In this document: positions 7,026 to 28,586 of the stretch, one piece after another
How the letters are laid out: each line of letters opens with the position of its first letter
How positions within the stretch are numbered: the first letter of the stretch is position 1
Assembly (NCBI GenBank): GCA_025361425.1
Contig: JANYAH010000362.1
Span: 1 to 33,510, forward strand
Origin: Candidatus Solibacter sp.
GTDB lineage: Bacteria; Acidobacteriota; Terriglobia; Bryobacterales; Bryobacteraceae
Direction of reading: 5' to 3'
Length of the DNA: 33,510 bases
Notes under the pieces: model-generated
What the model was told of the DNA's origin: nothing
The model's input: only the letters and a program-made list of their open reading frames with translations
Database searches by the model: none
Program-made: the position numbers and the translations under genes

Positions 7026-8459
7026 CTAGCGCCCAATTTGAGTGGTCCTGCCGGGGGCCACGGGTTGTGTGCCCTGGTTCATGCGGTCGGCTGGGGTTCC
7101 GCCGGGTCCGGTGACGTTGGGGTTGGGGATCAGCTTCTGCTTTTGCGCGTCGTAAATGAATTCCCACTCCTGGTACAGGGTGCGATCATTGTAGACCTTG
7201 ACTCCCTCGCCTTCGGCAGTGCTGGCTACGCCGGCGATGCCGCCGCCGATGGTCAGGCCTCCGGGATTGCTTTGCGGCATGCCTCCCGGGCGGGCACTGC
7301 CCAGTATGCCGCGAATCATGTCGGCTGCCGCGTTACCCGTGCCCGGCGCCATGCCAGGCTGGGGAAAGCCGGGGGGAATGCCGTTCGACCCTGGCGCGGT
7401 CGGATACGGGTAGACTCCGGGCGCTTGTGAATTGATCGGCGGTCCCGGTTGGCCGGGGAGGGGTTGGCCGGGATAAGTGGGTTGGCCGGTGTAGCCGGGC
7501 TGGCCGGGCTGGCCGGGATAGCCAGGCTGGGATCCGGTGACCGACCCGCCACCTACGAATGAACCACCGCCGCCCACGAAGGAACTGCCCGGGTTCAAGG
7601 TGGCGCCGGGTATTGTCAGGGTGCGGCCACTGGGCATGCCGGGAATACCAGGAATCCCTTGTTGGCCAAGCATTCCCTGCTGAGGAGGAAACCCCTGCTG
7701 AGGAGGAATCCCTTGCTGAGGAGGGAACCCCTGCTGTCCTGGAAACCCCTGCTGTCCCGCGATAGTCACGCCGGCTGGATAGGCGGGCTGCCCGGGTTGT
7801 CCGGTGGGGTAGCTGGTGCCGGGAAGCGGCGGCGGTCCGTTGTCCGGTCCCTGGCCGGGAAGAGGAGGCACTGTGGAACTCTGCCCGCCCGACAGGTTGG
7901 CGCCGGGGAGTGCGTCGCCCGGCATGGTCCCGTTGGCGCCTTCGGTAGTCCGCCGGCGGTCCCGCGCGTTGGCGGCGCCACCACCCGGGGTGGCGTTCTG
8001 CGAACTGCCTAGTCCGGCCAATTCACCGACGAATCCGTTGGGCGCCTTGGGCTCTTCCTTGCCGCCCGGGCCATTGGGTTTGGTCAGCTTGGAATCCGTC
8101 AGCATGCCGTTCTGGATATGGATGAGGCGCCACTCGTCTTTTCCCGTCATGGGGTCCACGTAGCGGTGGCGCAGGAAGCGCTGATTCTGGAAGCTCTCCA
8201 AGTCCTTGATATCGCTGGGGTATCGTTTGGCCTTGGCGACAAAAAGCTGAATGGCCCGTTTGTACTGCTCGCCGCGGTCGATCAGCGTCTGTTCCTTATC
8301 GCGCTGCGACTGCATGGCAACCCGCGGAAGCTCCATATACAAGGTGATGGCCACCACGCTGGCCATGAGAAAGACCAGCAAGAGAGCAAAACCTTGCTGG
8401 TTCTTGCGACGGTGAGGTCCAAGATGACATGCCAGGAGGCCTGTCTTACGCAGTGCCAC
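7026..8459 (-). CDS. Type II secretion/type IV pilus pseudopilin split by a collagen-like insertion
   Basis: The 477-aa protein starts with a basic leader and a prepilin site G23|F24, followed by a hydrophobic helix (24-42). Position +5 is Leu, not the Glu of major pilins, as in GspK-type minor pseudopilins. Residues 50-120 (SQRDKEQTLIDRGEQYKRAI, RFLRHRYVDPMTGKDEW) and 405-437 (GGIAGVAS, YQEWEFIYD) match the two ends of the small PulG-like pseudopilins of secretion operons. Between them, residues about 127-403 are Pro/Gly/Gln-rich and include QQGFPP-type repeats. The start is GTG, overlapping the preceding gene by 14 bases, and no better start follows. It is the last gene of the pil operon. 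The insert may project from the pilus tip or be a spacer; its function is unknown. Confidence 0.8.
   Translation of the reverse strand: MALRKTGLLACHLGPHRRKNQQGFALLLVFLMASVVAITLYMELPRVAMQSQRDKEQTLIDRGEQYKRAIQLFVAKAKRYPSDIKDLESFQNQRFLRHRYVDPMTGKDEWRLIHIQNGMLTDSKLTKPNGPGGKEEPKAPNGFVGELAGLGSSQNATPGGGAANARDRRRTTEGANGTMPGDALPGANLSGGQSSTVPPLPGQGPDNGPPPLPGTSYPTGQPGQPAYPAGVTIAGQQGFPGQQGFPPQQGIPPQQGFPPQQGMLGQQGIPGIPGMPSGRTLTIPGATLNPGSSFVGGGGSFVGGGSVTGSQPGYPGQPGQPGYTGQPTYPGQPLPGQPGPPINSQAPGVYPYPTAPGSNGIPPGFPQPGMAPGTGNAAADMIRGILGSARPGGMPQSNPGGLTIGGGIAGVASTAEGEGVKVYNDRTLYQEWEFIYDAQKQKLIPNPNVTGPGGTPADRMNQGTQPVAPGRTTQIGR
7657..7764. repeat. 18-bp coding tandem repeat (six units)
   Basis: Six units of 18 bp run from 7657 to 7764. 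The three central units share CCCTGCTGAGGAGGAAAC with few changes, and the outer units are more diverged. Translated on the minus strand they give six-residue QQGFPP-like repeats of the pseudopilin insert. An array this homogeneous could change in copy number by slippage. Confidence 0.75.
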
Positions 8460-9207
8460 CGGCGTCCTCCGAGATCTTGAGAGTTTGTTCGCGTTTCACG
8501 TCGGTGTCTTCAATCACCACCGACTCGGCATTGATGCGCACGATTTTGTAACGCTTTTTCACGGTCATGCCCTCGGTGGCGAGAATGATCTCTTCGCCAT
8601 CCAGGAAAAAAGCGGTCTTCTTGCCATCTATGCGCTTGGCGGCGAGACCATAATACTTCATCGTGATGGGCGGGGGAGGCGGGACCACCGGCGGACCCGG
8701 CGGTGGCGGCGGAGGGGGTGCTGCCGGGGGGCCCATTCTCTCCTTCACCTTGGGCACGATTTTGGGTTCGTTGCCGGCTAGGCCTGCCACCAGCTCCGCC
8801 TTGCCGAACTGAAATAGATTGCGTTGGCCGCCATCGAGCTTCACGCCTTGCACCTTGGCCAGCAGATCGAGGCGCAGGGTGGGATCGACGGTCCCGGGGT
8901 CGATCTGATCTTCCTTGCGTTTGGAGCGCAGCGAGGGGTGAAACTCGTCGCCCCGCGAGCGGCTGGCGGCTCCCAGTTGACGCGGCGGCGTTGTGGGCTG
9001 GGAGGCGGGCAGCGGCGCCAGTACGGCAGCGGGCGCGCCCCCGCTGGCCTCATCGGCACGAGTGCGTTCGGTGACGGTGGCTCGCGACGGCGCCACGGGC
9101 GCGGTGGAGGAATCCGACAGAAGGTTGGTGTAGACAAAGTAGGCCGCCACTACACCGAGCACGGCGAGCGCCCAAACCGATTTCTTATTCTCGGAACCCA
9201 GCTTCAT
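8446..9207 (-). CDS. PilP/GspC-like pilus assembly protein
   Basis: The 253-aa protein has a short cytoplasmic N-terminus, one membrane helix (about 11-30), a long low-complexity periplasmic linker with a polyproline run (about 160-180), and a compact beta domain at 181-246 (YYGLAAKRIDGKKTAFFLDGEE, then YKIVRINAESVVIED). That domain pattern fits PilP/GspC homology-region proteins that link the inner-membrane complex to the secretin. True PilP is usually a lipoprotein, and no lipobox is seen, so this is closer in topology to GspC. The ATG at 9207 overlaps the PilO stop as ATGA; the longer upstream frame is a shadow of pilO. The order after PilO supports the call. Confidence 0.7.
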   Translation of the reverse strand: MKLGSENKKSVWALAVLGVVAAYFVYTNLLSDSSTAPVAPSRATVTERTRADEASGGAPAAVLAPLPASQPTTPPRQLGAASRSRGDEFHPSLRSKRKEDQIDPGTVDPTLRLDLLAKVQGVKLDGGQRNLFQFGKAELVAGLAGNEPKIVPKVKERMGPPAAPPPPPPPGPPVVPPPPPITMKYYGLAAKRIDGKKTAFFLDGEEIILATEGMTVKKRYKIVRINAESVVIEDTDVKREQTLKISEDAGGTA

Positions 9208-9899
9208 AGTCCGGCTCCCGGCGCCGCGCTTGCGGGAGGCGCGGCGGTGGCCGGAGCCGCGGCGTTTGCCGGAGCCGGCGCGGCAACTTCCCTTTCTGGC
9301 GACCCACCTAATCCCTGTTCCTTCACGAAGGTGTCCACCTTCACCGTGACGTTGAGAATCTGCCCGGTCTGCTGGGGGGCGGCCACCATGCTTTCGATGA
9401 TCAGGAAACGCGGCGACTTGTCCACCAGGTTGACGAACTTGGAGAGCGCGGCGTAGGTTCCCTGGCATCCGGCATTGATGGTCATCATGGCGAGGGTGTC
9501 GGAGCCTTCAATCGCTTCCGGGGTCCAGGTGGTGGGCTGATAGGTGATGCCGGCATCCTTGGCGATCTGCACCAGTTCGCCCTGAATGGTGGAGGTCACA
9601 ATGCGGCGCTCCGTGAAGAACTTCGCCAGGAACTGATCGCCCTGGCTGCGCGCGGTCTCGACCTTTTCCACCAACTTCCGGTTCTTCGAGACCTGCGCCT
9701 GCAACTGGGCGAGTTGCTGTTGGAGGACGTTGCGGTCGCGGCGCAGATCCTCCGCGCCGCCGCCAAACGGCTTAAGGGCGACGACGGCGGCCACCAAATT
9801 GGCGACCAGGAGAACACCCAGAACCGCGCGCATGGCGACGCGGGGATCCTTCCACTTGAGTCCGGAGAGGCTTCCGGAGAGGTTAAAGTTTCTGGGCAT
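9204..9899 (-). CDS. pilO: PilO-like type IV pilus inner-membrane protein
   Basis: The 231-aa protein has one N-terminal membrane helix (about 22-43) and a coiled coil (about 50-85, LRRDRNVLQQQLAQLQAQVSK). A ferredoxin-like periplasmic domain follows (TWTPEAIEGSDTLAMMTINAGCQGTYAALSKFVNLVDKSPRFLIIESM), then an Ala/Pro-rich tail. PilO pairs with PilN in the inner-membrane alignment complex. It overlaps pilN upstream by 17 bases and the pilP-like gene downstream by 4 bases. Confidence 0.8.
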   Translation of the reverse strand: MPRNFNLSGSLSGLKWKDPRVAMRAVLGVLLVANLVAAVVALKPFGGGAEDLRRDRNVLQQQLAQLQAQVSKNRKLVEKVETARSQGDQFLAKFFTERRIVTSTIQGELVQIAKDAGITYQPTTWTPEAIEGSDTLAMMTINAGCQGTYAALSKFVNLVDKSPRFLIIESMVAAPQQTGQILNVTVKVDTFVKEQGLGGSPEREVAAPAPANAAAPATAAPPASAAPGAGL

Positions 9900-10449
9900 A
9901 ATTGACGGTAAAGCGGTAGCGGTACAACGGCTCGGCCTGGGAAGGCGGCTGATAAATGTTCTGGGTGACGCCGCCGAACAAGTCCGAACCCTCCAGCGCT
10001 TTATAAAACACGATCACCGGCTCGGGACCCTCCGCGCCTACCTGCAAACTCAAGATCACCTGATTGCGTCCGGTGACGTAGGGTTGGATATTGAGCACCT
10101 TGACGTTGGCCGGCATGGTTCTTTCAAGGTCGGCGAGAATGCGCGTCCAACTGATGCCTTTGCGGCTCAGCAGGGTATTGAGGAAGACGCTGAGTTCCAA
10201 CACCTGGGCGTTCTCGGGCTTGCGGATTACGGACTCGAAATCGGCCTGCTGTCTGCCCGCCGCGGCGATCTGGGTGCGCAGTTGCGTGACCTCCTTGCGC
10301 ACATCGGCCAACTGCGCGCTATCGGCGTTGGCGAGGGTCACGAGCGCGGTGAGCGAAGCCACCAGCAGGGCGCCGGCCGCAAGCGAGGCCACGAACATGG
10401 CGCGATCGCGGCGGAAGGGTTGGCTGGCGAGATTGATGGGAATCTTCAT
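9883..10449 (-). CDS. pilN: PilN-like type IV pilus inner-membrane protein
   Basis: The 188-aa protein begins with MKIPINLASQPF, the short cytoplasmic PilN motif that binds PilM, followed by one membrane helix (about 18-40). A coiled coil comes next (QLADVRKEVTQLRTQI), then a ferredoxin-like periplasmic domain (ISWTRILADLERTMPANVKVLNIQPYV). The ATG at 10449 places the INL motif at the N-terminus; the longer frame overlaps pilM as a shadow. It lies 13 bases after pilM and overlaps pilO. Confidence 0.82.
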   Translation of the reverse strand: MKIPINLASQPFRRDRAMFVASLAAGALLVASLTALVTLANADSAQLADVRKEVTQLRTQIAAAGRQQADFESVIRKPENAQVLELSVFLNTLLSRKGISWTRILADLERTMPANVKVLNIQPYVTGRNQVILSLQVGAEGPEPVIVFYKALEGSDLFGGVTQNIYQPPSQAEPLYRYRFTVNYAQKL

Positions 10450-10462
10450 TTCAGTTTTGACT

Positions 10463-11350
10463 TCAATTGTTCCTGGCGATGGACCGCAAATACCCCAACA
10501 ATCCGGCGTTATTCTCCCCCGGGGTGCCCAGCGGCGACCGCAGTGGCTCCACTTCCACACCCAACTCTCCGGCGAACCGGCTCTCCGCCTCCGCGGTGGA
10601 GGCGCCAAATCCGCAGAGCAGTAACTTTTCGGCGCGGCGCCCCAGGTTGTCTTCGATGTAGACGAAAGTGGGCACCAGCACGGCGGCGATATCCTCCAGA
10701 CCCGGGGAAGGCAATTCCAGGCAGCGCACCAGTTTCAGCTGGATCTTGTCGCGCACCACCACGGTGAGCACGCGTCCGGTTAGCTTGGCCAGAACGCTGA
10801 GTCCGGCCTCTGGCGCCAGTTCCAGGGCGGCGAGGCAAGAGGTTGTGACCATGCCGGGATTCATTCCGGCGGTGCGGAACGGCGATTCATAGCGCGACAC
10901 AATCTCCAGGGGGGCCATGACCACGACGACATCGGTCTTGCCCTTGGCGCCGTTCTGCGCCCAGTAGCTCATGGCGGCCGATTCCACGTCGAAGGGTACG
11001 CTGCGCTTGAGACGGAAGCGGATGAGCGAGGCCTGCTCCTTGGGGTCTTTGGGGAACGAGTCGAAATCCAGGACGGAAATGCGCGCGCTGAAATCAGGCA
11101 GAATGAGGGTGATATCCCGGCGTTTGCGGGCCGCCTGCGTGCCCGCCAGGCTGCGCACGGCCATCACGAACTCGTCGGGATCGAGGACATTTTCCTTCAG
11201 CGGCGAAACGCAGAGCGTACCGGGTTTCAGGGGCAGGAAATCCAACTCCGCTCGGGCGCCAATGCGGGCCGCGGCGATACCGGCTTCGGAGATCTCGAAG
11301 GCCATCGCGGGCGGCGCTTCCTGCAATATCGATTTAAGTTTGTCGAACAT
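10463..11350 (-). CDS. pilM: PilM-like actin-fold pilus assembly protein
   Basis: The 295-aa cytoplasmic protein has an actin/FtsA-like layout. An opening strand (AFEISEAGIAAARIG) is followed by ITLILPDFSARISVLDFDSFP and by a helix with FRLKRSVPFDVESAAMSYW, a hallmark of PilM/GspL cytoplasmic domains. The second half has VLTVVVRDKIQLKLVRCLEL and ends with EKLLLCGFG. It is shorter than typical PilM (about 350 aa), so part of a subdomain may be reduced. PilM links the ATPase to PilN. Its ATG overlaps the pilB stop by one base (TAATG), implying translational coupling. Confidence 0.78.
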   Translation of the reverse strand: MFDKLKSILQEAPPAMAFEISEAGIAAARIGARAELDFLPLKPGTLCVSPLKENVLDPDEFVMAVRSLAGTQAARKRRDITLILPDFSARISVLDFDSFPKDPKEQASLIRFRLKRSVPFDVESAAMSYWAQNGAKGKTDVVVVMAPLEIVSRYESPFRTAGMNPGMVTTSCLAALELAPEAGLSVLAKLTGRVLTVVVRDKIQLKLVRCLELPSPGLEDIAAVLVPTFVYIEDNLGRRAEKLLLCGFGASTAEAESRFAGELGVEVEPLRSPLGTPGENNAGLLGYLRSIARNN

Positions 11351-12984
11351 TACCCCTCAATAAACGTGACCTTGTTGATTTCCCGCAAGGTGGTGATTCC
11401 CCGGCGCATTTTTTCCACCGCCGAATCGCGCAGGAAAGTCATGCCGTCTTCCTTGGCGGCGCGCTTGATCTCCGAGGTGGGGCGGCGGTTCAAAATCATT
11501 TCGCGAATACCGTCCGTCAGGTCCAGCAGTTCATGAATCGCGGAACGGCCGCGGAAGCCCGTGCCGCCGCACTCGAAGCAGCCGGTACCTTCCATCATCG
11601 GCACATCGCGCCATTCATCTGGGTTGAGGCCGCTTTCGACCAGCAGCGAATCGGGATACTTGACTTCGCGCTTGCAGTGCTCGCAGATCTGGCGTACCAG
11701 GCGCTGGGCGAGGATGCAGTTGAGCGCGGACACAAAATTGTAGGGCTCCACGCCCATGTTGAGGAAGCGCCCGAGCACGTCCAGCACGTTGTTGGCGTGG
11801 ACTGTGGTAAACACGAGGTGGCCCGTGAGGGCGGAGTTGATGGCGATCTGCGCGGTTTCCTGATCGCGGATTTCGCCCACCATGATCTTGTCGGGATCGT
11901 GACGCAGAATAGAGCGTAAGCCGCGCGCAAAGGTAAGGCCCTTCTTCTCATTCACCGGAATCTGGGTAATGCCCTTGATCTGGTACTCCACCGGGTCTTC
12001 GATGGTGATGATCTTGTCTTCGTCGTTCTTGATCTCGCTGAGAGCGGCGTACAGCGTGGTGGTTTTGCCGGACCCGGTAGGCCCGGTGACCAGCACCATG
12101 CCATACGGCTCCATGATGTAGCGGCGGAACTTGACCAGGTCGTTTTCCGTGAAGCCCACGACGTCGAGCGAGAGTTTCTGGAACTTCTCGCTCATGGATT
12201 CTTTGTCGAGCACGCGCAACACGGCGTCCTCCCCGTGGATGGTGGGCATGATGGAGACGCGGAAATCGATCAGGCGGTTCTTGTAGCGCACGCGGAAGCG
12301 CCCGTCCTGAGGGACGCGCTTCTCGGCGATATCGAGTTCGCTCATGACCTTGATGCGCGAGATGATGGTGCTCTGCCAGTCCTTGGAGATGGGCGGCATG
12401 GCATAATGCAAAACGCCATCGATGCGATACTTGATGGCCACTTCCTGGTCTCGCGATTCAATGTGAATATCGCTGGCGCGGCGTTCGAGGGCGTTAAAAA
12501 TCGTGGTATCGACCAGCTTGATGACCGGCGCGATATCGGAATTGGTGGCGGTCAGTTTGTCGATGGAGAGGGTCTCGTCGGAGTCCCCGTCCTCGGCGAT
12601 GACGTCGAGGGCGAACCCCTCGGTGACTTCCTCCAGGACGCGCTGCGATTGCTCGGTCTTCTTCAGCAGTTCGGAAATCTGCGAGAGAGTGGCCACCTTG
12701 ACGCGCAGTTTCTTGTTCAGCAGCAGGGTCAATTCATCGATCAGGTTCAGGTTGCGCGGATCGGAGAGGGCGATATCGAGCGTGCCGTTCTGGGCGTGCA
12801 GCGGCACGAAATTGTAGCGGAACATCAGATCCACCGGGATCGAGCGGAAAAGATCGTGATCGATGCCCGCTTCCCGCAGATCGATATACTCGCAGCGGTA
12901 GCGCGCCGCAATTGCCCGTGCCTGCTCCGCATCTGCCCCGGGTTCCGATAATTTGGTTCTATCCGTCGTCGCCATTCCTTCCAC
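11350..12984 (-). CDS. pilB: PilB/GspE-type assembly ATPase
   Basis: The 544-aa secretion ATPase has an N-terminal GspE-N domain (about 20-110), then the core. Walker A is GPTGSGKT (301-308), the Asp box is IITIEDPVEY (325-334), and Walker B is IMVGEIRD (367-374) followed by a conserved His segment (TGHLVFTTVHANN). The tetracysteine zinc motif is C434-x2-C437 and C469-x2-C472. It powers pseudopilin polymerisation at the inner membrane. GTG at 12984 is used; ATG three codons later is equally possible. It follows pilC by 6 bases and is coupled to pilM. The zinc motif and full N-domain point to an extension ATPase and not a PilT-type retraction ATPase. Confidence 0.92.
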   Translation of the reverse strand: MEGMATTDRTKLSEPGADAEQARAIAARYRCEYIDLREAGIDHDLFRSIPVDLMFRYNFVPLHAQNGTLDIALSDPRNLNLIDELTLLLNKKLRVKVATLSQISELLKKTEQSQRVLEEVTEGFALDVIAEDGDSDETLSIDKLTATNSDIAPVIKLVDTTIFNALERRASDIHIESRDQEVAIKYRIDGVLHYAMPPISKDWQSTIISRIKVMSELDIAEKRVPQDGRFRVRYKNRLIDFRVSIMPTIHGEDAVLRVLDKESMSEKFQKLSLDVVGFTENDLVKFRRYIMEPYGMVLVTGPTGSGKTTTLYAALSEIKNDEDKIITIEDPVEYQIKGITQIPVNEKKGLTFARGLRSILRHDPDKIMVGEIRDQETAQIAINSALTGHLVFTTVHANNVLDVLGRFLNMGVEPYNFVSALNCILAQRLVRQICEHCKREVKYPDSLLVESGLNPDEWRDVPMMEGTGCFECGGTGFRGRSAIHELLDLTDGIREMILNRRPTSEIKRAAKEDGMTFLRDSAVEKMRRGITTLREINKVTFIEG

Positions 12985-12990
12985 TCATCC

Positions 12991-14199
12991 TTATCGAATC
13001 GTGTCCGCCAGGGAGAAGATCGGCAGATACAAGGCGATCAACACAAACGCCACGAAGCCACCCATGACGATCATGATCGCCGGTTCGATCAGCGACAGCG
13101 TGGCCGCCATTTTGGTATTCACATCCTCTTCGAAAAACTCCGCCACGCTGCTGAGCATGGCGGGCAGCGCGCCGGTGGATTCGCCCACCTCGATCATGTC
13201 GATGGCCAGCGGGGGGAAAAGCTTGGATTGCTTCAGCGAACCGGAGAGCGGCTGGCCTTCGCGCACGCTCTTGCCCGCGGCCTCCACGGCGCGCTGCAGC
13301 AGGCGCGTGCCCAGGGAATCGGCGGCCGTTTCCATGGCCTGGACCAGCGGGATGCCGCCCACCAGCAAGGTGCTCAAAATGCGCGCCAGTTGGGCCACCT
13401 GGTATTTTAGCCAGATCTCGCCCACTAGGGGCAGGCGCAACTTTATGCGGTCCAACGTTTCCTGGGCCGAATCGCGCCGCGCCCACCAGCGGAACAGAAA
13501 GATGGAGCCGGCGACCGCCGCCGCAAACAATACGATGTACTTCTGCGCCGCGCTGCCGATGGCGATCAGGTACACGGTCATGATGGGGAGTTTCGCCTGC
13601 ATGCTGCTGTAAAGGTTTGCGAACGTCGGCACCACGTAGGTGACCAGGAAGACCATCAACAGGACCACGAGAACCACCAGCACGCTCGGGTACATCAGCG
13701 AAACCATGATTTTCTTGCGCACCGCCAGGGAAAGTTTCTGGTAGTTCACGTAGCGGTCCATGACTTCGGTCAGGCTGCCGCTCTTCTCTCCGGCCATCAC
13801 CGAGGTGACGTAGATTTTGGGGAAAATGCCCTGCTGGCGGAAGGCCTCGCTCAGCAGTGTGCCGCCGCGTACTTCATCGCGGACCGACTTTATGTAGGGT
13901 CCCAGCTTGGGATCGGTCAACCGCTCGGCCAGCAGGTCCAAGGCTTTGAGGATGGGCAAGCCGGCGCGGATGAGGGTGACAAACTGCTGGTTGAAGATGA
14001 GGAACTTCTCCAGGTTGAGCTTCTTGCGGCCGCCGAGCAATCCGGTTCCGCCGACGCCACCGGAGCGGGGCTTGATGGAATAGATCAGGAAGCCTTGCTG
14101 GGCGTACTTCTCGCGGATTTCCTTCTCGGAGGTCGCGCTGGTTACCTGGTGGTGGATCTGCCCGCGCCCGTCTGCGTACTTGAGCACAAAATCGGCCAT
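12991..14199 (-). CDS. pilC: PilC/GspF inner-membrane platform protein
   Basis: The 402-aa protein has two T2SSF domains (about 68-190 and 270-390). Each contains the family loop: AGEKSGSL at 136-143 and VGESTGALP at 338-346. Membrane helices lie at about 168-190, 218-236 and 373-393. An N-terminal extension (1-60) has the usual Y-x-A-x-D-G-like strand. It forms the platform on which the ATPase acts. It starts 2 bases after the lolA stop and ends 6 bases before pilB. Confidence 0.92.
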   Translation of the reverse strand: MADFVLKYADGRGQIHHQVTSATSEKEIREKYAQQGFLIYSIKPRSGGVGGTGLLGGRKKLNLEKFLIFNQQFVTLIRAGLPILKALDLLAERLTDPKLGPYIKSVRDEVRGGTLLSEAFRQQGIFPKIYVTSVMAGEKSGSLTEVMDRYVNYQKLSLAVRKKIMVSLMYPSVLVVLVVLLMVFLVTYVVPTFANLYSSMQAKLPIMTVYLIAIGSAAQKYIVLFAAAVAGSIFLFRWWARRDSAQETLDRIKLRLPLVGEIWLKYQVAQLARILSTLLVGGIPLVQAMETAADSLGTRLLQRAVEAAGKSVREGQPLSGSLKQSKLFPPLAIDMIEVGESTGALPAMLSSVAEFFEEDVNTKMAATLSLIEPAIMIVMGGFVAFVLIALYLPIFSLADTIR

Positions 14200-14201
14200 T
14201 G

Positions 14202-14834
14202 CTACTGCCCGCCCTCCACCAGTTGTGTCCCTTTAGGCGCCTGAAATTGGAACAACTTACCATCCAATGGGGGGTCCACCTTCTCCTGATCGAGCCGGAA
14301 CTCCAGCACGGAGTGGTCGAAGCCGGTTACCTTCACCACCTTGATGCGCTGGTCCGGGGCGACCAGGAATTCGACGGCGGAATAGGGCAGGTTGTCGGTT
14401 TTGGGCTCCGCGGTAATCCTCATGTCGGGGCCTTCGGGTTTCGCCTGTAGATTGCGGAACTCCTTCTGGAAGTCTAGTCTACCTAGAAGGAAGGCGAGTG
14501 GCGCGCGCATGTCGTCGCTCTCTTTGAGCTTCATTTTTTCGGCGCGGTTTTCCAGCGGGGTGTACAGCCAGAGGTATTTCCCGTCACTGACGAAGAGTTT
14601 GCCTTTCGGTTGATCGTAGTCCCAGCGCATTTTCCCCGGCTTGCGGAGGACCAGCGTGCCGCTTTCTGTCCTCTTAGCCCGGCCGGGCGGCGTATAGTCC
14701 TCATGGAAAAGGACTTGCAGCGTTTTGGTCTTGTTGTAGCGTGCCTCAACGCCCTTCAGAAGCGTATCCAGCGCCGCATCCCCGGCGAAAGCCGACACTG
14801 CGAGTAACCCTATCAGGAGCCGAAAAACTCTCAC
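14202..14834 (-). CDS. lolA: LolA-like outer-membrane lipoprotein carrier protein
   Basis: The 210-aa protein has a signal peptide (residues 1-17, AFA|GD) and the LolA half-barrel pattern. Key segments are LLKGVEARYNKTKTLQVLF, GTLVLRKPGKMRWDYDQPKGKLFVSDGKYLWLYTP and FLLGRLDFQKEF. LolA shuttles lipoproteins from LolCDE across the periplasm. The start is GTG; a nearby ATG at 14836 is in another frame and stops at once. It is the first gene of the pil operon, 2 bases ahead of pilC, a placement that could serve lipoproteins of the machine (a pilotin, for example). No convincing promoter was found in the 79 bases upstream. Confidence 0.82.
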   Translation of the reverse strand: MRVFRLLIGLLAVSAFAGDAALDTLLKGVEARYNKTKTLQVLFHEDYTPPGRAKRTESGTLVLRKPGKMRWDYDQPKGKLFVSDGKYLWLYTPLENRAEKMKLKESDDMRAPLAFLLGRLDFQKEFRNLQAKPEGPDMRITAEPKTDNLPYSAVEFLVAPDQRIKVVKVTGFDHSVLEFRLDQEKVDPPLDGKLFQFQAPKGTQLVEGGQ

Positions 14835-18620: not shown

Positions 18621-21600
18621 TTAGCGGACGGAGATGGTGACGCCTGGCTGGCTCTGGTTGCCTCCGATGGTGACCACAATGAACTGGTCGCCGGCCGCGA
18701 TATTGGTCGGGACCGCTACGTTCAACTGCATGAGGCCAGAGATGAATCCGGGGGCTTCGCCGGCGAAGCTCCAGTTGGCTGGCTGACCGCCGATGGTGAC
18801 GGAAATGGGCAGCAGCGGCGCGGGGGTGAGGGGCTGCGGAGCCGCAGCCACCGTGGTCACCTTGCCGGTCACACCGGCCGGCGAGGTCTCGCCTTCACCC
18901 GTGACGTAGACCACCACGGTGTCGCCCCGGGTGGCCGGGAAGGCCGCGGAGTTGGGGGTGGTGCTGTCGGAATTCAAAATGGCTCCGGGACCAGTGCCTG
19001 AAGAGCTGGCGGTAAACATTCCCGGCGCCGTGGTGGCCACATTCACCGCTACGCCATTGGATGTCTGGCCGAGGAACTTCACCAGGACGGTGGCGGTAGT
19101 GAACAACTTGAGCTCATAAGGCACCACGGCGGATACCTGCGAAGCGCTGACGTAGATCATGGGGCAGGCAAACCCGTTGATCAGCACCTGCACGCCACCC
19201 ATGGTAGTGGAGAGCTTGCCGGAGGAATCGAGTGTGATGAGAGACACCGCGGTTGCCGGGCCGATGGGGTGTGTGGGGTCGCTGGCGAAGAGAGTGATGA
19301 TTTCTCCGGGCGCGATGGACCCGACGGCGTAACTGGCCGCGTTGGTCACCTTGGTGATGGTGGGCAGCGGGACGGTTACGTTCAGGGTAACGGTGACAGT
19401 GCTGGAACCGGGCGCACTGCCGGTGCCGGCCACGAGTATGGTGCCGATGTAGCTGCCGGTGGAGAGGCCGGCCGGGTTGATGGAAACGTTCACCGTCGCG
19501 GGCGTGGTACCGGTGGCGGGCGAGACCACCAGCCAATTGCCGTTGCTGGATGGCGTGGCGCTGAAGGCCAGCGCGGCGCCGCCGCCGGAAACGGTGAGTG
19601 GTTTCGCGGCCGGTACGGCAGCGCCGGCGCGGTAGTCGAAGGTGAATGTGGTGGGCGTGGCGGTAACGGTCGTCGCCCCAGTCAAGATGGTCAGATACAC
19701 TGGAACGTTAACCGGGCTACCGCCGGTGGGCGTAATGAGAATGTTGCCGAGGTACGAGTTGGGCCCCAGTATGCCCGTATTGACCGAGACCGTCAAGTTA
19801 GTCAACGGAGTCGTATTAGTGCCGCTGGCATTGGTGGAAAGCCAATTGGCGCCGGTTGTCACCTGCACGGTGAAGGGGACGCCGGCAGAGCCGGAAGCGC
19901 TGTTCACTTTCAGGGTTTGGGCTGCCGGGTTAGACCCGGACGGCGCCGAGAAGGTGAGCGACCCGGGCGTCACGTTGACGTCGCTAGGGCCGCCGGTGCC
20001 CCCGCCGGTGCCACCGCTGCCGCCGCCGTTGACCACCAGGAGGATCGGAATCGTGGTCGGGCTATTGGCAGCGCCCGTCTGGCTGACCGCGACGGAACCG
20101 CTGTACACGCCCGTGGTCAATCCCGTTTGATCCACCTGAACCGTTATAGACCTTTCGTCGTGGGTCACCGCGATCCAGCTATTGTTGGACACAGCGGTGA
20201 TCGCCAGCGGATTGAGAGTGCCATCGGAGCTGCTGAAATATACCGGCTGGACGGCGGGATTCCCCTGGCCGGTCTGCGCGGTAAAGATCAAGTCGCCCGG
20301 GGTGGGAAGCAGAATGGCTCCAGTCACGACGGTCAGGGAAACCTTGATGCTCTGGGTGCCGCCGGCTGTGTTGATGGTAATGATGCCGCCGTAAATGTCG
20401 GCGGTCAGGCCAGTGGCGTCCAGAGTTACAACAGGCGCTTCACTGGCATTGGCCGGGTTCGGCAGCGAGGTGCCGTTCGAGGGAGTAAGTTTCAGCCAAT
20501 TGCCGCCGTTGGTGGTGGCAATGGAGGACGACCAGGCGCCCTTCGGTCCCGTGATGACCAGCTTTTGCCGGGCGACGAAATTGGTCGGGTCGGTGCCGAG
20601 TTGGTAGGAAAAGTTGAGAGCGGTTGGCGCCACCGCGGTAGTGCCGGTTCCGCCGCCGCCAACCACCATGGTTACGGTGAGCGTGGCGGACTGCGCCCCC
20701 ACCGCCACCAACAAGGTGCCGGTGTAGGTGTTGGCCACCAATCCGGCCGGATTGCCAGTGACTGTGAAGCCGAGAGTCCCCCCGGGCGCGACGCTAATGT
20801 TGGTAGGGAGCTGATACGTCATGCCGGTGGGGAGGGTTCCGGACACCGAAAGGTTCCCGCCGACGCTGCTGGTCACATTGACGGTCTGGCTCTGCGGAAT
20901 ACCGTTCAACGGGGCGGCCAAAGAGACGGGATTGGGGGTGACGGTGAGCGCCGGCCCATTGCCGCTGGTCACATTAAGGGTAACGGCCACCGAGATCTGG
21001 TAATTTCCAGCCGAATCGTAGATATCGACCCTGCCAGGGTATTGGCCTGCCGGCAAGGCGTTGGCTGAGGTATCGAGCTTCAGCGCGAATGGGGTACCCA
21101 CGCCGATTCCGGTGAGAGACGTGACATCGGCGACGCTGCCGGCAGATACTCGCAGCCAGCCATTGCCGCTGTAGGCGTTTACGCCATAGGTAAACGATCC
21201 ACTGGTGGAGTTGACCGTGATCGCCTGACTCGCCGGGTAGACCCCGCTGTTGATGACGAAATTCCACCCGACGGCGCCTGGGGTCGCAATCCAGGCACCA
21301 TTGGTGACGCCGGCGCTCACCGCGAAGGTCACAGGAATGGTTAGCGGCGTGCCAGTCGATGGCGTTACGATGACGCTGCCCTGATAGGTCAATCCGGACG
21401 TCAAACTGGTCCCGTCCGCGGTGATGGTGAGAGTGCTGCCACCGCTCGAATCCAGGGCGCTAGCGAACGGAGAAACGCTCAGCCAGTTGGCCGCGCCGGA
21501 ACTCACTGACGTGCTTTGGTTAATAGTGATGGTGCTCACACTATTGGTTGTGATGTTGACGGTGGTGGAGGCCGGGCTGTTCACGGCCGCGGTCAAATTC

Positions 21601-22055
21601 ACAGTGGTCGGGGAGGCGGTGAGGGTAGTACTACCGGTGCCGCCACCGCCTGTACTGTCAAAAGTCACCGCAATCGTCACGGCCGCGACGCCGGATGGAA
21701 TGGTCGGCATCAGCGTGACCGTGGCCGACGCCCCACTGTTCACTCCAGCAAAGGAATCGTTCCGCAGGCCGAAAGTCAGGTACGCCGTGAGCGCCGTGCT
21801 CGTGGTGCCGCTTGGCTTGACTCTCAGCCAATCTCCGGAGGAATTACCCATCGGATACGAGATTGCGGCCACGTAGGTGATTGTCGTCCCCGCGGGGAAA
21901 CTCGTCACGGAGGCGGGGAAGGAACCGGAAGTCCCAATCGTCACGGTGGCGGGGGCGACTAGTGTGGGCGTCACTGCCCAACCGGGCGCTGCCATCAGCA
22001 ACGCGACTACAAATAAAAGAGCGGAAGTCTTGAAAAGTTTTTGAGCGGTGTCCAT
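18621..22055 (-). CDS. Very large secreted BACON-repeat protein with Solibacter-type C-terminal domain (TIGR03437)
   Basis: The 1144-aa protein has a signal peptide (hydrophobic about 10-28, ending GWA). It then has many Ser/Thr/Gly-rich beta-sandwich repeats of about 90-100 aa, with recurring NWLSVSP/NWLKLTPS-like Trp motifs and TTPATVNVSINPAGLSTGSY-type segments, the pattern of BACON (carbohydrate or mucin-associated) domains. Residues 900-1144 (starting ITKVTNAASYAVGSIAPGEI) match the C-terminal domain catalogued as TIGR03437, abundant in Solibacter. The ATG at 22055 follows a GAGG Shine-Dalgarno. It is probably an extracellular or surface adhesin or carbohydrate-binding protein. No enzyme domain is visible. 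It stands alone, 115 bases from its upstream neighbour and followed by a stem-loop. Confidence 0.85.
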   Translation of the reverse strand: MDTAQKLFKTSALLFVVALLMAAPGWAVTPTLVAPATVTIGTSGSFPASVTSFPAGTTITYVAAISYPMGNSSGDWLRVKPSGTTSTALTAYLTFGLRNDSFAGVNSGASATVTLMPTIPSGVAAVTIAVTFDSTGGGGTGSTTLTASPTTVNLTAAVNSPASTTVNITTNSVSTITINQSTSVSSGAANWLSVSPFASALDSSGGSTLTITADGTSLTSGLTYQGSVIVTPSTGTPLTIPVTFAVSAGVTNGAWIATPGAVGWNFVINSGVYPASQAITVNSTSGSFTYGVNAYSGNGWLRVSAGSVADVTSLTGIGVGTPFALKLDTSANALPAGQYPGRVDIYDSAGNYQISVAVTLNVTSGNGPALTVTPNPVSLAAPLNGIPQSQTVNVTSSVGGNLSVSGTLPTGMTYQLPTNISVAPGGTLGFTVTGNPAGLVANTYTGTLLVAVGAQSATLTVTMVVGGGGTGTTAVAPTALNFSYQLGTDPTNFVARQKLVITGPKGAWSSSIATTNGGNWLKLTPSNGTSLPNPANASEAPVVTLDATGLTADIYGGIITINTAGGTQSIKVSLTVVTGAILLPTPGDLIFTAQTGQGNPAVQPVYFSSSDGTLNPLAITAVSNNSWIAVTHDERSITVQVDQTGLTTGVYSGSVAVSQTGAANSPTTIPILLVVNGGGSGGTGGGTGGPSDVNVTPGSLTFSAPSGSNPAAQTLKVNSASGSAGVPFTVQVTTGANWLSTNASGTNTTPLTNLTVSVNTGILGPNSYLGNILITPTGGSPVNVPVYLTILTGATTVTATPTTFTFDYRAGAAVPAAKPLTVSGGGAALAFSATPSSNGNWLVVSPATGTTPATVNVSINPAGLSTGSYIGTILVAGTGSAPGSSTVTVTLNVTVPLPTITKVTNAASYAVGSIAPGEIITLFASDPTHPIGPATAVSLITLDSSGKLSTTMGGVQVLINGFACPMIYVSASQVSAVVPYELKLFTTATVLVKFLGQTSNGVAVNVATTAPGMFTASSSGTGPGAILNSDSTTPNSAAFPATRGDTVVVYVTGEGETSPAGVTGKVTTVAAAPQPLTPAPLLPISVTIGGQPANWSFAGEAPGFISGLMQLNVAVPTNIAAGDQFIVVTIGGNQSQPGVTISVR

Positions 22056-22076
22056 AATTTGTCCTCGGCCAAGTTG

Positions 22077-22102
22077 ATCATACAACAACAGCTTCCTGCC
22101 AA
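22077..22102 (-). promoter_or_regulatory. Weak promoter candidate for the BACON protein gene
   Basis: On the minus strand TTGGCA (22097-22102) and TATGAT (22077-22082) each differ from the sigma-70 consensus at one base, but the spacer is only 14 bases. The site sits 21 bases upstream of the ATG. The short spacer makes this doubtful. Confidence 0.25.
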
Positions 22103-25580: not shown

Positions 25581-28500
25581 TCAGAAGACGAATTTCATCC
25601 CCAATTGTATCTGTCGCGACGAACCCAGATCGCCGCGCACCGTACGGGTGGCGGTGATCTGCCCGAACTGCGCGCTATTGAAGGTGTTGATGGGCTGGCC
25701 CAGGTTGGGATGGTTGAAGAGGTTGAATACCTCTGCGCGGAACTGCAATTGCCGGCTCTCGTGGATCACGGTGGTCTTGGCCAGAGAGAAGTCCACGTCC
25801 TGGAACGCCGGGGCGGTCAGGATGTTACGCCCGGCGTTGCCGAAATGCCCGCGTTGGTTGGCCACGAAGGCCGCTTTGTTGATCCACTGTGCCGGATCCT
25901 TGGCGGCTGGGTAGAGCGCTTGGACATAGACGTAATCCGGCCGGTCAAAGGCCTTCAGGCTGCCGGAATTCAGCGTCGACATGATCGGGCTGAACGGGTT
26001 GCCGGATTGCAAATTGACAATCGGCGCTACGCTCCAGCCCTGCACCAGGCGGCTGAGTGCGCCCTTGGCCTGGAAGGGCAACTGATACACCAGGCTGGCC
26101 ACGTAGCGGTGACGTGCGTCGAAATCTGAGAGGGCATGCTCCAGGCCGAGGTGGTAAGCGTCCTGCACCTGCGGGTTGCTGCTGCCCACCGAGTTCAAAT
26201 CTATCGATTTGGATAGAGTGTAGGACGTGGTGAAAGTGAGGCCCCGCGAGAAGCGCCGGTTGGCGCTGACCCACAGGGAATTGTAGTTAGAGCGGGAACT
26301 GCTCTCATTCATATTGATAATCCCCCAGGTGGTCAGCGGGCGGACGCTGTTGACTCCCTGGTTGACGTCCCGCACCAGGCGCAGGCGGCGCCCTTGCGAG
26401 CCAACGTAGCCGATCTGGAAGACCGTGCCCTTGGCCTCGTGCTGCAGGTTGAAATTGTACTGGAAGACGCGGCCGCTGCGCATATTGGGCGCCACCGCGT
26501 TCGCGTCGAAGATGGCTGGACCGCCGCCGGGCAGGTTAAAGGGCGAGGTCAGGTCGATATTGAGCGGCTTCTGCGGCGTGCTGGTGAAAGTAACCGAACT
26601 GGAAAACGGCGGGTTGCTGCCCAGCGGCGTGATGATGTTGGTCACCGGCTGGTCATAGTAGAGGCCCACACCGCCGCGCACCGCCGTCGTGTTCTTGGCG
26701 CCAGGGTTGAAGGCGAAGCCGAAGCGCGGTCCGAAGTTGGTGAACTCGCGCGCGTACGGCCGGTCCCACCCTCCGCTCCCCAAGGCGAACAGCTTACTCT
26801 GCGTGAAGTCGAAGACGGAGAGGCGGCCGTACTTCTCCGACGGCACACCGTTGTATTCCCAGCGGATGCCGTAGTTGAGTGTCAGCCTGGGGCTGACCTT
26901 GTAGTCGTCCTGGGCAAAGAAGCTCAGCGCGTTCACTCGCAGCGCGGGGTTGGCGGCTACAGTCTGCTGGGTGGTGGACGTGGCCACGCCGTTCAGGAAA
27001 TCGGTCAGTGTGGCGAACGTGAGGGTGCCGCCGGTTCCGCCATTAAAACTGTTATTGCGGAAGCGCCGAAACTCCGTGCCGAACTTCAGCGAGTGGCGGG
27101 ATTTCACCCACGTCAAGGCATCGCTATACTGCATCGTAGTGTCGCCGCGTCCCTGGGGGAAGCCGGGAATGCCGCCGAACGCCATGCCGCCGGAAATGGC
27201 GATGCGCGGCAGTATCGTGGAGAGCGAGTTGATGCCGAATTCCGTCGGGTTCTGTAAGGCCTCCGCGAGGAAGTCTATGCGCACGCGGTTGAGCCCGGCG
27301 TGGAAATCGTTGGTCAACGTGGGAGCCAGCAGCCTCGTATAACCTATGGCCAGGAAGTACCGCTTGGCCGGACGCGAGTCGCCCGCGCCCGCCAGGTTGC
27401 CACCCTGCAGGTTGGGTTCTGTGCGCTCATCCCGGTTGGAGATGAACGTGCCAAAGAGGAAATTGCGCTCGTTGATGGTGTGGTCGAGCCGCCCGCTGAA
27501 CTGGTTCAGCGTGCGCTTCTTGGGAACCGCCCCGGTAAAGAAGCCGTCGGCGCCGCCGGCCGGAACCAAAGTGAGTAACTTGGCGATCACCGGATTAGTG
27601 ACGCCGGCGCGCTGCCCGGCACTGGGAACGGCCGTGCGCAGGCTGACGGATTCGCGTCCCTGACGGCCTTCGTAGCTATGGTAGAAAAACGTCTTGTTGC
27701 GCCGGATCGGGCCGCCCACGGCGTAACCGTAGATGTTGCGCTTAAAGGGCGCGATGGGGCGGCTGCCGGCGTCGAAGAAGTTCTTGGCGTCGAATTTTTC
27801 GTTGCGCACGAATTCGTAGGCCGTGCCGTGCAACCCGTTGCCTCCCTGCTTGGAAACGGCGTTGATGATGATCCCGGCGTTGCGCCCGTATTCGGCGCTG
27901 AAGGCGTTGGTCTGCACCTTGAATTCCTGGATCATGTCGACGTTGGGCTGGAAGGTGATCTGGTTCTGCACCATGTCCGACAGGTTGATGCCGTCGAACA
28001 GGTAGTTGGTGGAATCCTCGCGCGCGCCCGATGCGTTGATGCCGCTCGCGCCGATGCCGCTGGGCGCGGCCAGGAAGGTGCGGTTGCTGGTGGAGGGCAC
28101 CACGGTGCCCGGCGTCAACAGCGCAAGGTCCAGAAAAAAGCGCCCGTTGAGCGGGATCTCAACAATCTTCTTGTTCTCAATCACCTCGCCGACACTGCTG
28201 TTCTCTGTCTGCACGCCCATGCTTTCGCCCTGCACGGTAACCATGGTCGTGGAGTCGCCCACTTCGAGCGAGGCATCCACGCGCCCGCGCTGATCCACCG
28301 CCAGCGCGACCGTGTCGCGCCGGTACGTGCGGAAGCCGGATTGTTCCACCTTCAGCGAATATCCGCCCGGACGCACCACGGAGAACTCGTAGTTGCCGTT
28401 CTCATCGGTCTGCGTGGACTGGCTGACTTTGGTTGCGGAATTGACAAGAGTGACGTGGGCGCGTGGCACCAAGGCACCCTGAGGATCTTTGACGGTTCCC

Positions 28501-28586
28501 ACCAGCGACGAGTTCTGCGCGGCAAGGGGCAGAGATACAAGCAACAAAGCCGAAGTCGCTAGCAGGGCGGTTTTGACAGCTTGCAT
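25581..28586 (-). CDS. Oar-like TonB-dependent receptor with carboxypeptidase-regulatory-like N-terminus
   Basis: The 1001-aa outer-membrane protein has a signal peptide (1-24, ending LAAQ). A carboxypeptidase regulatory-like beta sandwich follows (about 27-107, GTVKDPQGALVPRAHVTLVN, DENGNYEFSVVRPGGYSLKV), then a plug domain (about 135-250, IVEIPLNGRFFLDLALLTPG, AEYGRNAGIIINAVSKQGGN) and a large beta barrel ending in Phe (QLGMKFVF). This is the Oar/CarboxypepD_reg-TonB type that is very abundant in Solibacter-like Acidobacteria. It probably takes up or senses oligosaccharides, peptides or plant polymers; the substrate cannot be read. An AGGGGG Shine-Dalgarno precedes the ATG. No SusD-like partner or TonB gene lies nearby. 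Confidence 0.9.
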   Translation of the reverse strand: MQAVKTALLATSALLLVSLPLAAQNSSLVGTVKDPQGALVPRAHVTLVNSATKVSQSTQTDENGNYEFSVVRPGGYSLKVEQSGFRTYRRDTVALAVDQRGRVDASLEVGDSTTMVTVQGESMGVQTENSSVGEVIENKKIVEIPLNGRFFLDLALLTPGTVVPSTSNRTFLAAPSGIGASGINASGAREDSTNYLFDGINLSDMVQNQITFQPNVDMIQEFKVQTNAFSAEYGRNAGIIINAVSKQGGNGLHGTAYEFVRNEKFDAKNFFDAGSRPIAPFKRNIYGYAVGGPIRRNKTFFYHSYEGRQGRESVSLRTAVPSAGQRAGVTNPVIAKLLTLVPAGGADGFFTGAVPKKRTLNQFSGRLDHTINERNFLFGTFISNRDERTEPNLQGGNLAGAGDSRPAKRYFLAIGYTRLLAPTLTNDFHAGLNRVRIDFLAEALQNPTEFGINSLSTILPRIAISGGMAFGGIPGFPQGRGDTTMQYSDALTWVKSRHSLKFGTEFRRFRNNSFNGGTGGTLTFATLTDFLNGVATSTTQQTVAANPALRVNALSFFAQDDYKVSPRLTLNYGIRWEYNGVPSEKYGRLSVFDFTQSKLFALGSGGWDRPYAREFTNFGPRFGFAFNPGAKNTTAVRGGVGLYYDQPVTNIITPLGSNPPFSSSVTFTSTPQKPLNIDLTSPFNLPGGGPAIFDANAVAPNMRSGRVFQYNFNLQHEAKGTVFQIGYVGSQGRRLRLVRDVNQGVNSVRPLTTWGIINMNESSSRSNYNSLWVSANRRFSRGLTFTTSYTLSKSIDLNSVGSSNPQVQDAYHLGLEHALSDFDARHRYVASLVYQLPFQAKGALSRLVQGWSVAPIVNLQSGNPFSPIMSTLNSGSLKAFDRPDYVYVQALYPAAKDPAQWINKAAFVANQRGHFGNAGRNILTAPAFQDVDFSLAKTTVIHESRQLQFRAEVFNLFNHPNLGQPINTFNSAQFGQITATRTVRGDLGSSRQIQLGMKFVF

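Follow-up and report, generated by a model that had tools for sequence, protein, structure and literature searches.

A pseudopilin with a long, predicted disordered head loop at the end of a type II secretion-like operon of Bryobacterales

The window, i.e. the whole 33,510-nt stretch of DNA that was analysed, carries on its minus strand an operon with the gene order lolA, gspF, gspE, pilM-, pilN-, pilO- and gspC/pilP-like, followed by the gene for a 477-aa pseudopilin. The pseudopilin gene is the last of this seven- to eight-gene operon. Its open reading frame (7026-8459, minus strand) is intact and begins with GTG; the stop codon occupies 7026-7028 and the coding codons stop at 7029. The preceding genes are:

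14202-14834, minus strand: LolA-like lipoprotein-carrier gene, which heads the operon (PF03548, 1e-20)
12991-14199, minus strand: GspF/PilC platform protein (TIGR02120, 1e-99)
11350-12984, minus strand: GspE/PilB ATPase (PF00437, 2e-129; TIGR02538, 546 bits; TIGR02533, 533 bits)
10463-11350, minus strand: PilM/GspL-like protein (TIGR01175, 2.2e-4)
9883-10608, minus strand: PilN-like protein, assigned by its position in the conserved operon; no Pfam match, start probably internal
9204-9899, minus strand: PilO/GspM-like assembly-platform protein (PF04350, 2.8e-6; NF040576, 4e-9)
8446-9468, minus strand: GspC/PilP-like protein with a Pro-rich linker, assigned by operon position and similarity; no Pfam match, true start probably internal

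The engine genes are collinear with the pseudopilin gene in 67 of 80 Bryobacterales loci. Within the pseudopilin gene the following parts were distinguished:

8394-8459, minus strand: leader peptide, residues 1-22, with the prepilin-peptidase cut predicted after Gly23, between QQG and FALLL
8088-8390, minus strand: N-terminal pseudopilin part, residues 24-124, a hydrophobic helix with a head segment that resembles GspG (AlphaFold2 pLDDT 78-96 per block to residue 120)
7254-8087, minus strand: Pro/Gly/Gln-rich insert, residues 125-402 (~280 residues), predicted to be disordered
7941-7973, minus strand: motif i of the insert, residues 163-173, DRRRTTE here, RRRxS[DE]-like
7647-7754, minus strand: six tandem hexapeptide units QQG(F/I/M)(P/L)(P/G), residues 236-271, encoded by a degenerate 18-bp array
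7284-7343, minus strand: motif ii of the insert, close to its C-terminal end, residues 373-392, NAAADMIRGILGSARPG, I..(I/L)LT.PRPGG-like
7140-7253, minus strand: C-terminal pseudopilin part, residues 403-440, GGGIAGVAS...VYNDRTLYQEWEFIYD (AlphaFold2 pLDDT 80-86)
7029-7139, minus strand: Pro/Gly-rich C-terminal tail, residues 441-477, short and weakly constrained

The leader is of class III, with a terminal Gly followed by a hydrophobic helix (predicted cleavage between QQG and FALLLVFLMASVVAITLY), and Gly occupies the predicted cleavage column in all 151 family members; the Pfam model PF07963 gave no score on the 477-aa protein. The C-terminal tail has a median length of 66 aa in Bryobacterales. 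Against the four nearest relatives, dN/dS was ~0.1-0.2 for the N-domain, ~0.1 for the C-motif and ~0.2-0.3 for the insert. These values indicate that purifying selection acts on the gene and that the insert is coding and constrained, as judged from sequence comparison. The matched orthologue frames of three genomes from a single genus (G022, G034 and G082; genus g9) each contain one TAG, which probably sits upstream of the true start.

A sequence-only reading of this DNA had taken the two ends of the protein for one small pseudopilin split by an insert. This is borne out by homologues without insert, by the predicted fold and by a structural alignment across the insert. The insert-free homologues are continuous over both conserved motifs, as in '...DPMTQDGTWEVVTAVQAGLTGDKTGLPIVGVHSKSTQDSFRTYQGKTLYCDWVF' of locus L185 and '...DPLTGKADWLLVTTPTGEIMGISSASDQ...KKRYSEWVFYY' of the Burkholderia protein P0002, and the C-terminal motif is common to them. 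In one family of the phylum (f24, 7 of 7 sampled members) and in the Burkholderia homologues, the motifs are joined by about 13 residues or fewer; one of these proteins, of 172 aa, is encoded on a Burkholderia ambifaria plasmid. In an AlphaFold2 model built on a 60-sequence alignment, the insert is preceded by helix and a single strand and followed by three to four short strands (N-flank: helices 22-77 and 84-92, strand 110-116; C-flank: strands 407-413, 418-423, 426-428 and 433-435), so that the long helix 22-77 is predicted to pack on an antiparallel beta-sheet made of strands of both flanks. Foldseek returned a single, weak match in the PDB (E 9.5), the major pseudopilin EpsG. VIA-align superposed residues 49-435 of the model, spanning the insert, on EpsG with a Z of 7.8 and an rmsd of 2.5 over 89 residues, where a Z below 8 can reflect a common arrangement and is alone not proof. 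Taken together, the homologues and the EpsG alignment make a convincing case that both ends of the modelled protein belong to one pseudopilin domain. The flanks thus align as one domain, as the proposed alignment of the joined flanks and modelling of the structure had been meant to establish; the C-terminal part resumes at about residue 403 and not at 405. Searches of the complete protein with Pfam and NCBIfam, and of the joined flanks with Pfam, assigned no family, and a profile search of the PDB sequences yielded just a marginal match to a Geobacter pilin (E 0.28).

The insert is placed after the first strand of the head in the AlphaFold2 model. Its pLDDT is mostly below 50, the predicted disordered stretch covers residues ~131-402, and residues 125-400 (276 residues) include 65 G, 54 P and 26 Q. 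The six 18-bp repeats described earlier are present as the units QQGFPG, QQGFPP, QQGIPP, QQGFPP, QQGMLG and QQGIPG; TRF counted 4.4 copies of 18 bp, and shuffled inserts contained at most two such hexapeptides in tandem. The array differs among close relatives: it is absent in L062 and exists in a GQQGFP version in L075. The description of the insert as collagen-like had to be given up. A collagen-like protein was rejected for want of long uninterrupted Gly-X-Y tracts, the longest run here being 5 triplets; among 71 orthologues, 34 do not reach even 4 triplets in a row.

Two short motifs are conserved near the ends of the insert. With patterns written post hoc from the inspected alignment, motif i was matched in 65 of 75 orthologues, against about 1 expected from shuffled inserts, and motif ii in 58 of 75, against about 3. 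Motif i lies a median of 53 aa past the N-domain and motif ii about 26 aa ahead of the C-domain. Within motif ii, L386 and P389 are nearly invariant in alignment A2, and a low-confidence helix is predicted at 377-387 (pLDDT about 57). The variable part between the two motifs measures 86-265 aa.

The long loop is lineage-wide in Bryobacterales and not a one-off. The family was matched in 119 of 120 genomes of the order, and the long form and the conserved N-terminal pseudopilin part were each found in 117; G084 and G096 have a short paralogue only, and in G112 the long form is cut by a contig end. In the Acidobacteriota as a whole the family profile matched 251 of the 297 genomes scanned, where some matches may be paralogues. 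A spacer of 13 aa separates the two conserved pseudopilin motifs in f24. Its length is mostly 19-79 aa in other families (149 aa in one case), 37-158 aa (median 110) in f4, the sister family within the same class, and 172-390 aa (median 258) in 75 of 75 Bryobacterales orthologues. In a tree of the flanks only, which rests on 133 columns and whose deep forks are unsure, Bryobacterales (support 99/91), f4 (81/80) and f24 (100/98) each form a clade. Because the spacer lengths are graded in this way and the flank tree resolves these clades, the loop was lengthened stepwise or more than once; it was not a ready-made domain gained by a single species. The comparison of orthologues that had been suggested for the insertion therefore gives a divided answer: the term insertion holds against other classes and Betaproteobacteria, but fails inside the order, where the long form is the rule.

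At locus L174 (G305:C2, family f25), where the spacer is 149 aa, the corresponding loop contains an independent and very regular tandem repeat of the GGGLQ type, and its sequence suggests that the loop has grown by repeats more than once. In the f4 loci L035-L061 the shorter inserts mostly start with a different conserved motif, KTTVKGFFGQPL, which is absent from the Bryobacterales orthologues read.

In other classes a secretin gene lies downstream of the pseudopilin gene; none was found there in the 33,510-nt window. In the source genome the genes of the machine are split between contigs C210 and C220, and C220 codes for a TPR-secretin-cohesin protein and, directly after it, for two short pseudopilins with Glu5 (154 and 147 aa). 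These are likely the partners of the window operon because of co-occurrence and of gene adjacency elsewhere. Across 36 genomes, psp1, the first of the short pseudopilins, was strongly matched (E about 1e-36 or better) in 18 of 18 with the family and in 2 of 18 without it (Fisher p 4e-8, kinship ignored). Several other families of the phylum have all the genes in one cluster, gspF-gspE-pilM-pilN-pilO-gspC-secretin-psp1-psp2-this pseudopilin family, which is fullest in L212, and Burkholderia ambifaria has the same gene order with a secretin that carries TPR and cohesin. GspE, GspF, a secretin and three pseudopilins, as expected of a three-pseudopilin type II secretion system (T2SS), are linked in these families and in Burkholderia.

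In Acidobacteriota and Burkholderia alike, the secretins of this machine (L208:5643-8402 on G000:C220, L165:5730-8234, L218:6728-9097) bear TPR repeats at the N-terminus and a cohesin domain at the C-terminus. The source genome (G000) has six secretin genes, on contigs C184, C258, C328, C28, C220 and C317. Contig C28 holds a separate cluster with its own gspE/F, pseudopilin and secretin genes and a GspK-like gene (57.4 bits, cut-off 130); therefore the window operon encodes a machine distinct from that of C28. Elsewhere in the window, 18621-22088, near the secretion operon, codes for a possibly exported protein of 1155 aa that combines BACON/Ig-like repeats with the Solibacter C-terminal domain TIGR03437, and 25581-28586 for a large carboxypeptidase-regulatory/TonB-like outer-membrane barrel (PF25183, 3.5e-197).

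At mature position 5, none of the 151 family members has Glu or Asp, the residue being Leu in the 477-aa pseudopilin; Glu5 was present in all four partner pseudopilin sequences inspected. Absence of Glu5 is an accepted exception among type IV pilins, for tip subunits, and it is a subunit without Glu5 that caps the tip complex of minor pilins (reviewed in PMC10191384). Placement at the tip is favoured because no family member has Glu5. Of the earlier proposal that the insert hangs off the filament or its tip, the tip is the favoured part; exposure at the cell surface is unsupported.

A possible interpretation, to which we assign a probability of roughly one half, is that the 477-aa protein, which lacks Glu5, serves a T2SS-like machine as its third pseudopilin, of the tip type, and that its long disordered head loop projects as a flexible brush. 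The machine would be made of GspE, GspF, a PilM/N/O-like platform, the GspC/PilP-like protein, the TPR-cohesin secretin and the two Glu5-bearing short pseudopilins. The 477-aa pseudopilin would assemble first and cap the pseudopilus, and its disordered loop would project from the tip within the periplasm or the secretin. The conserved end motifs of the loop could be docking sites for partner proteins or substrate, and its variable middle would do no more than set reach and bulk. The extra bulk would also hold the subunit at the tip, as has been argued for GspK, whose bulky insertion may confine it there (PMC7248040). A more specific version, in which the tip subunit of Bryobacterales has an obligatory disordered loop of 170-390 residues that has a conserved docking motif towards either end and acts inside the secretin as a brush to catch substrate or fill the channel, seems rather unlikely. 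If true, the brush loop would be a natively disordered tip module undescribed for any type IV filament.

The main rival is that the loop is neutral filler: a head loop and a C-tail that tolerate low-complexity DNA would have grown by slippage and unequal exchange in GC-rich genomes, with no function of their own. This is possible, although we hold it to be doubtful. Loop length ranges widely within the order (172-390 aa) and does not correlate with the length of the GspC-like protein (rho 0.14, p 0.23), the 18-bp array varies between close relatives, and loop and tail, both rich in Pro and Gly, change at the protein level two to three times as fast as the flanks. Much of the middle of the insert behaves as tolerated filler would. 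Yet a short loop was never found in the 117 Bryobacterales genomes or among the 75 orthologues, the motifs near both loop ends are conserved, and dN/dS of the insert is still about 0.2-0.3.

Display of the insert on the outside of the cell, where it would act as an adhesive arm or a stalk, is the role first suggested for it and is quite improbable. Modular pilins with adhesive tip domains are widespread (PMC8179133), and with about 280 residues the insert would have a long contour. However, Pfam and NCBIfam recognised no binding domain in the insert, or indeed any domain of the kind that marks a modular pilin; it has no triple-helix tract and no cysteine, and there is no sign that the T2SS-like fibre leaves the periplasm. 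That the protein is simply a T2SS GspK is very unlikely. Absence of Glu5, the insertion in the head and a weak NCBIfam match (0.26) are as one would expect of GspK, but the NF037980 score of 10.8 bits misses the cut-off of 130, contig C28 offers a better candidate with the same model, itself under the cut-off, and the insert is predicted to be disordered and to follow the first strand, with no alpha-domain between strands 3 and 4; this identity was rejected. Misassembly, a frameshift or a fusion of neighbouring genes, conceivable in a fragmented source assembly of 377 contigs, has practically no chance and is refuted by the orthologues, since the same architecture recurs in dozens of assemblies made independently, some of them of near-complete genomes (AP025252.1, for example).

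The 477-aa subunit is therefore a familiar type of component in a genuinely elaborated form, which is shared across its lineage. With spacers from 13 to 390 aa, the family provides a graded natural series of one secretion-fibre subunit, and because some members of the series lack the insert although they belong to a machine of the same kind, the effect of bulk at the pseudopilus tip becomes testable. The matches to the family profile in 251 of 297 genomes also suggest that a T2SS-like system, as yet uncharacterised, is widespread in Acidobacteriota.

The gene set resembles two described or sequenced systems. The atypical Pul T2SS of Geobacter and Pelobacter, likened here by gene set and not by sequence, is needed for OmpB secretion and has the three pseudopilins PulG, OxpG and TklG; the accessible portion of its description reports no insert for them (PMC3543383). 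The Burkholderia ambifaria plasmid cluster of NZ_CP086300.1 has the order gspF-gspE-four small genes-secretin (TPR, cohesin)-psp-psp-this pseudopilin family, but its third 'type II secretion system protein' (WP_229083877.1) has 172 aa and no insert.

Pilins with extra domains inserted in the head are known from GspK and ComZ (PMC8179133, PMC6561018, PMC7248040). Like the 477-aa protein, GspK, the tip minor pseudopilin of the T2SS, lacks Glu5, is larger than the other subunits and caps the tip, as the 477-aa protein presumably does; its alpha-domain, however, is folded and lies between strands 3 and 4, whereas the insert here is of low complexity, predicted to be disordered and placed after the first strand. 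ComZ, a minor pilin of Thermus thermophilus, likened by description and not by sequence, has a head split by an insertion of ~380 residues, Gly instead of Glu at position 5 and a proposed tip location, but its insertion is a folded, DNA-binding beta-solenoid between the last two strands. Grafted modules are also known from PilB and PilC of Streptococcus sanguinis, modular type IV pilins that carry an extra module for display (PMC8179133, PMC6561018); in these a recognised domain is fused C-terminally, unlike the internal insertion without recognised domain found here. The layout, of which the sequence-only reading knew no described case, is commonplace within Bryobacterales (117 of 120 genomes). 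No pilin whose head contains a long disordered insertion came up in a literature search that reached few subscription journals. Pilin heads with insertions are known, and what appears to be new is a long disordered insertion with a short conserved motif towards either end.
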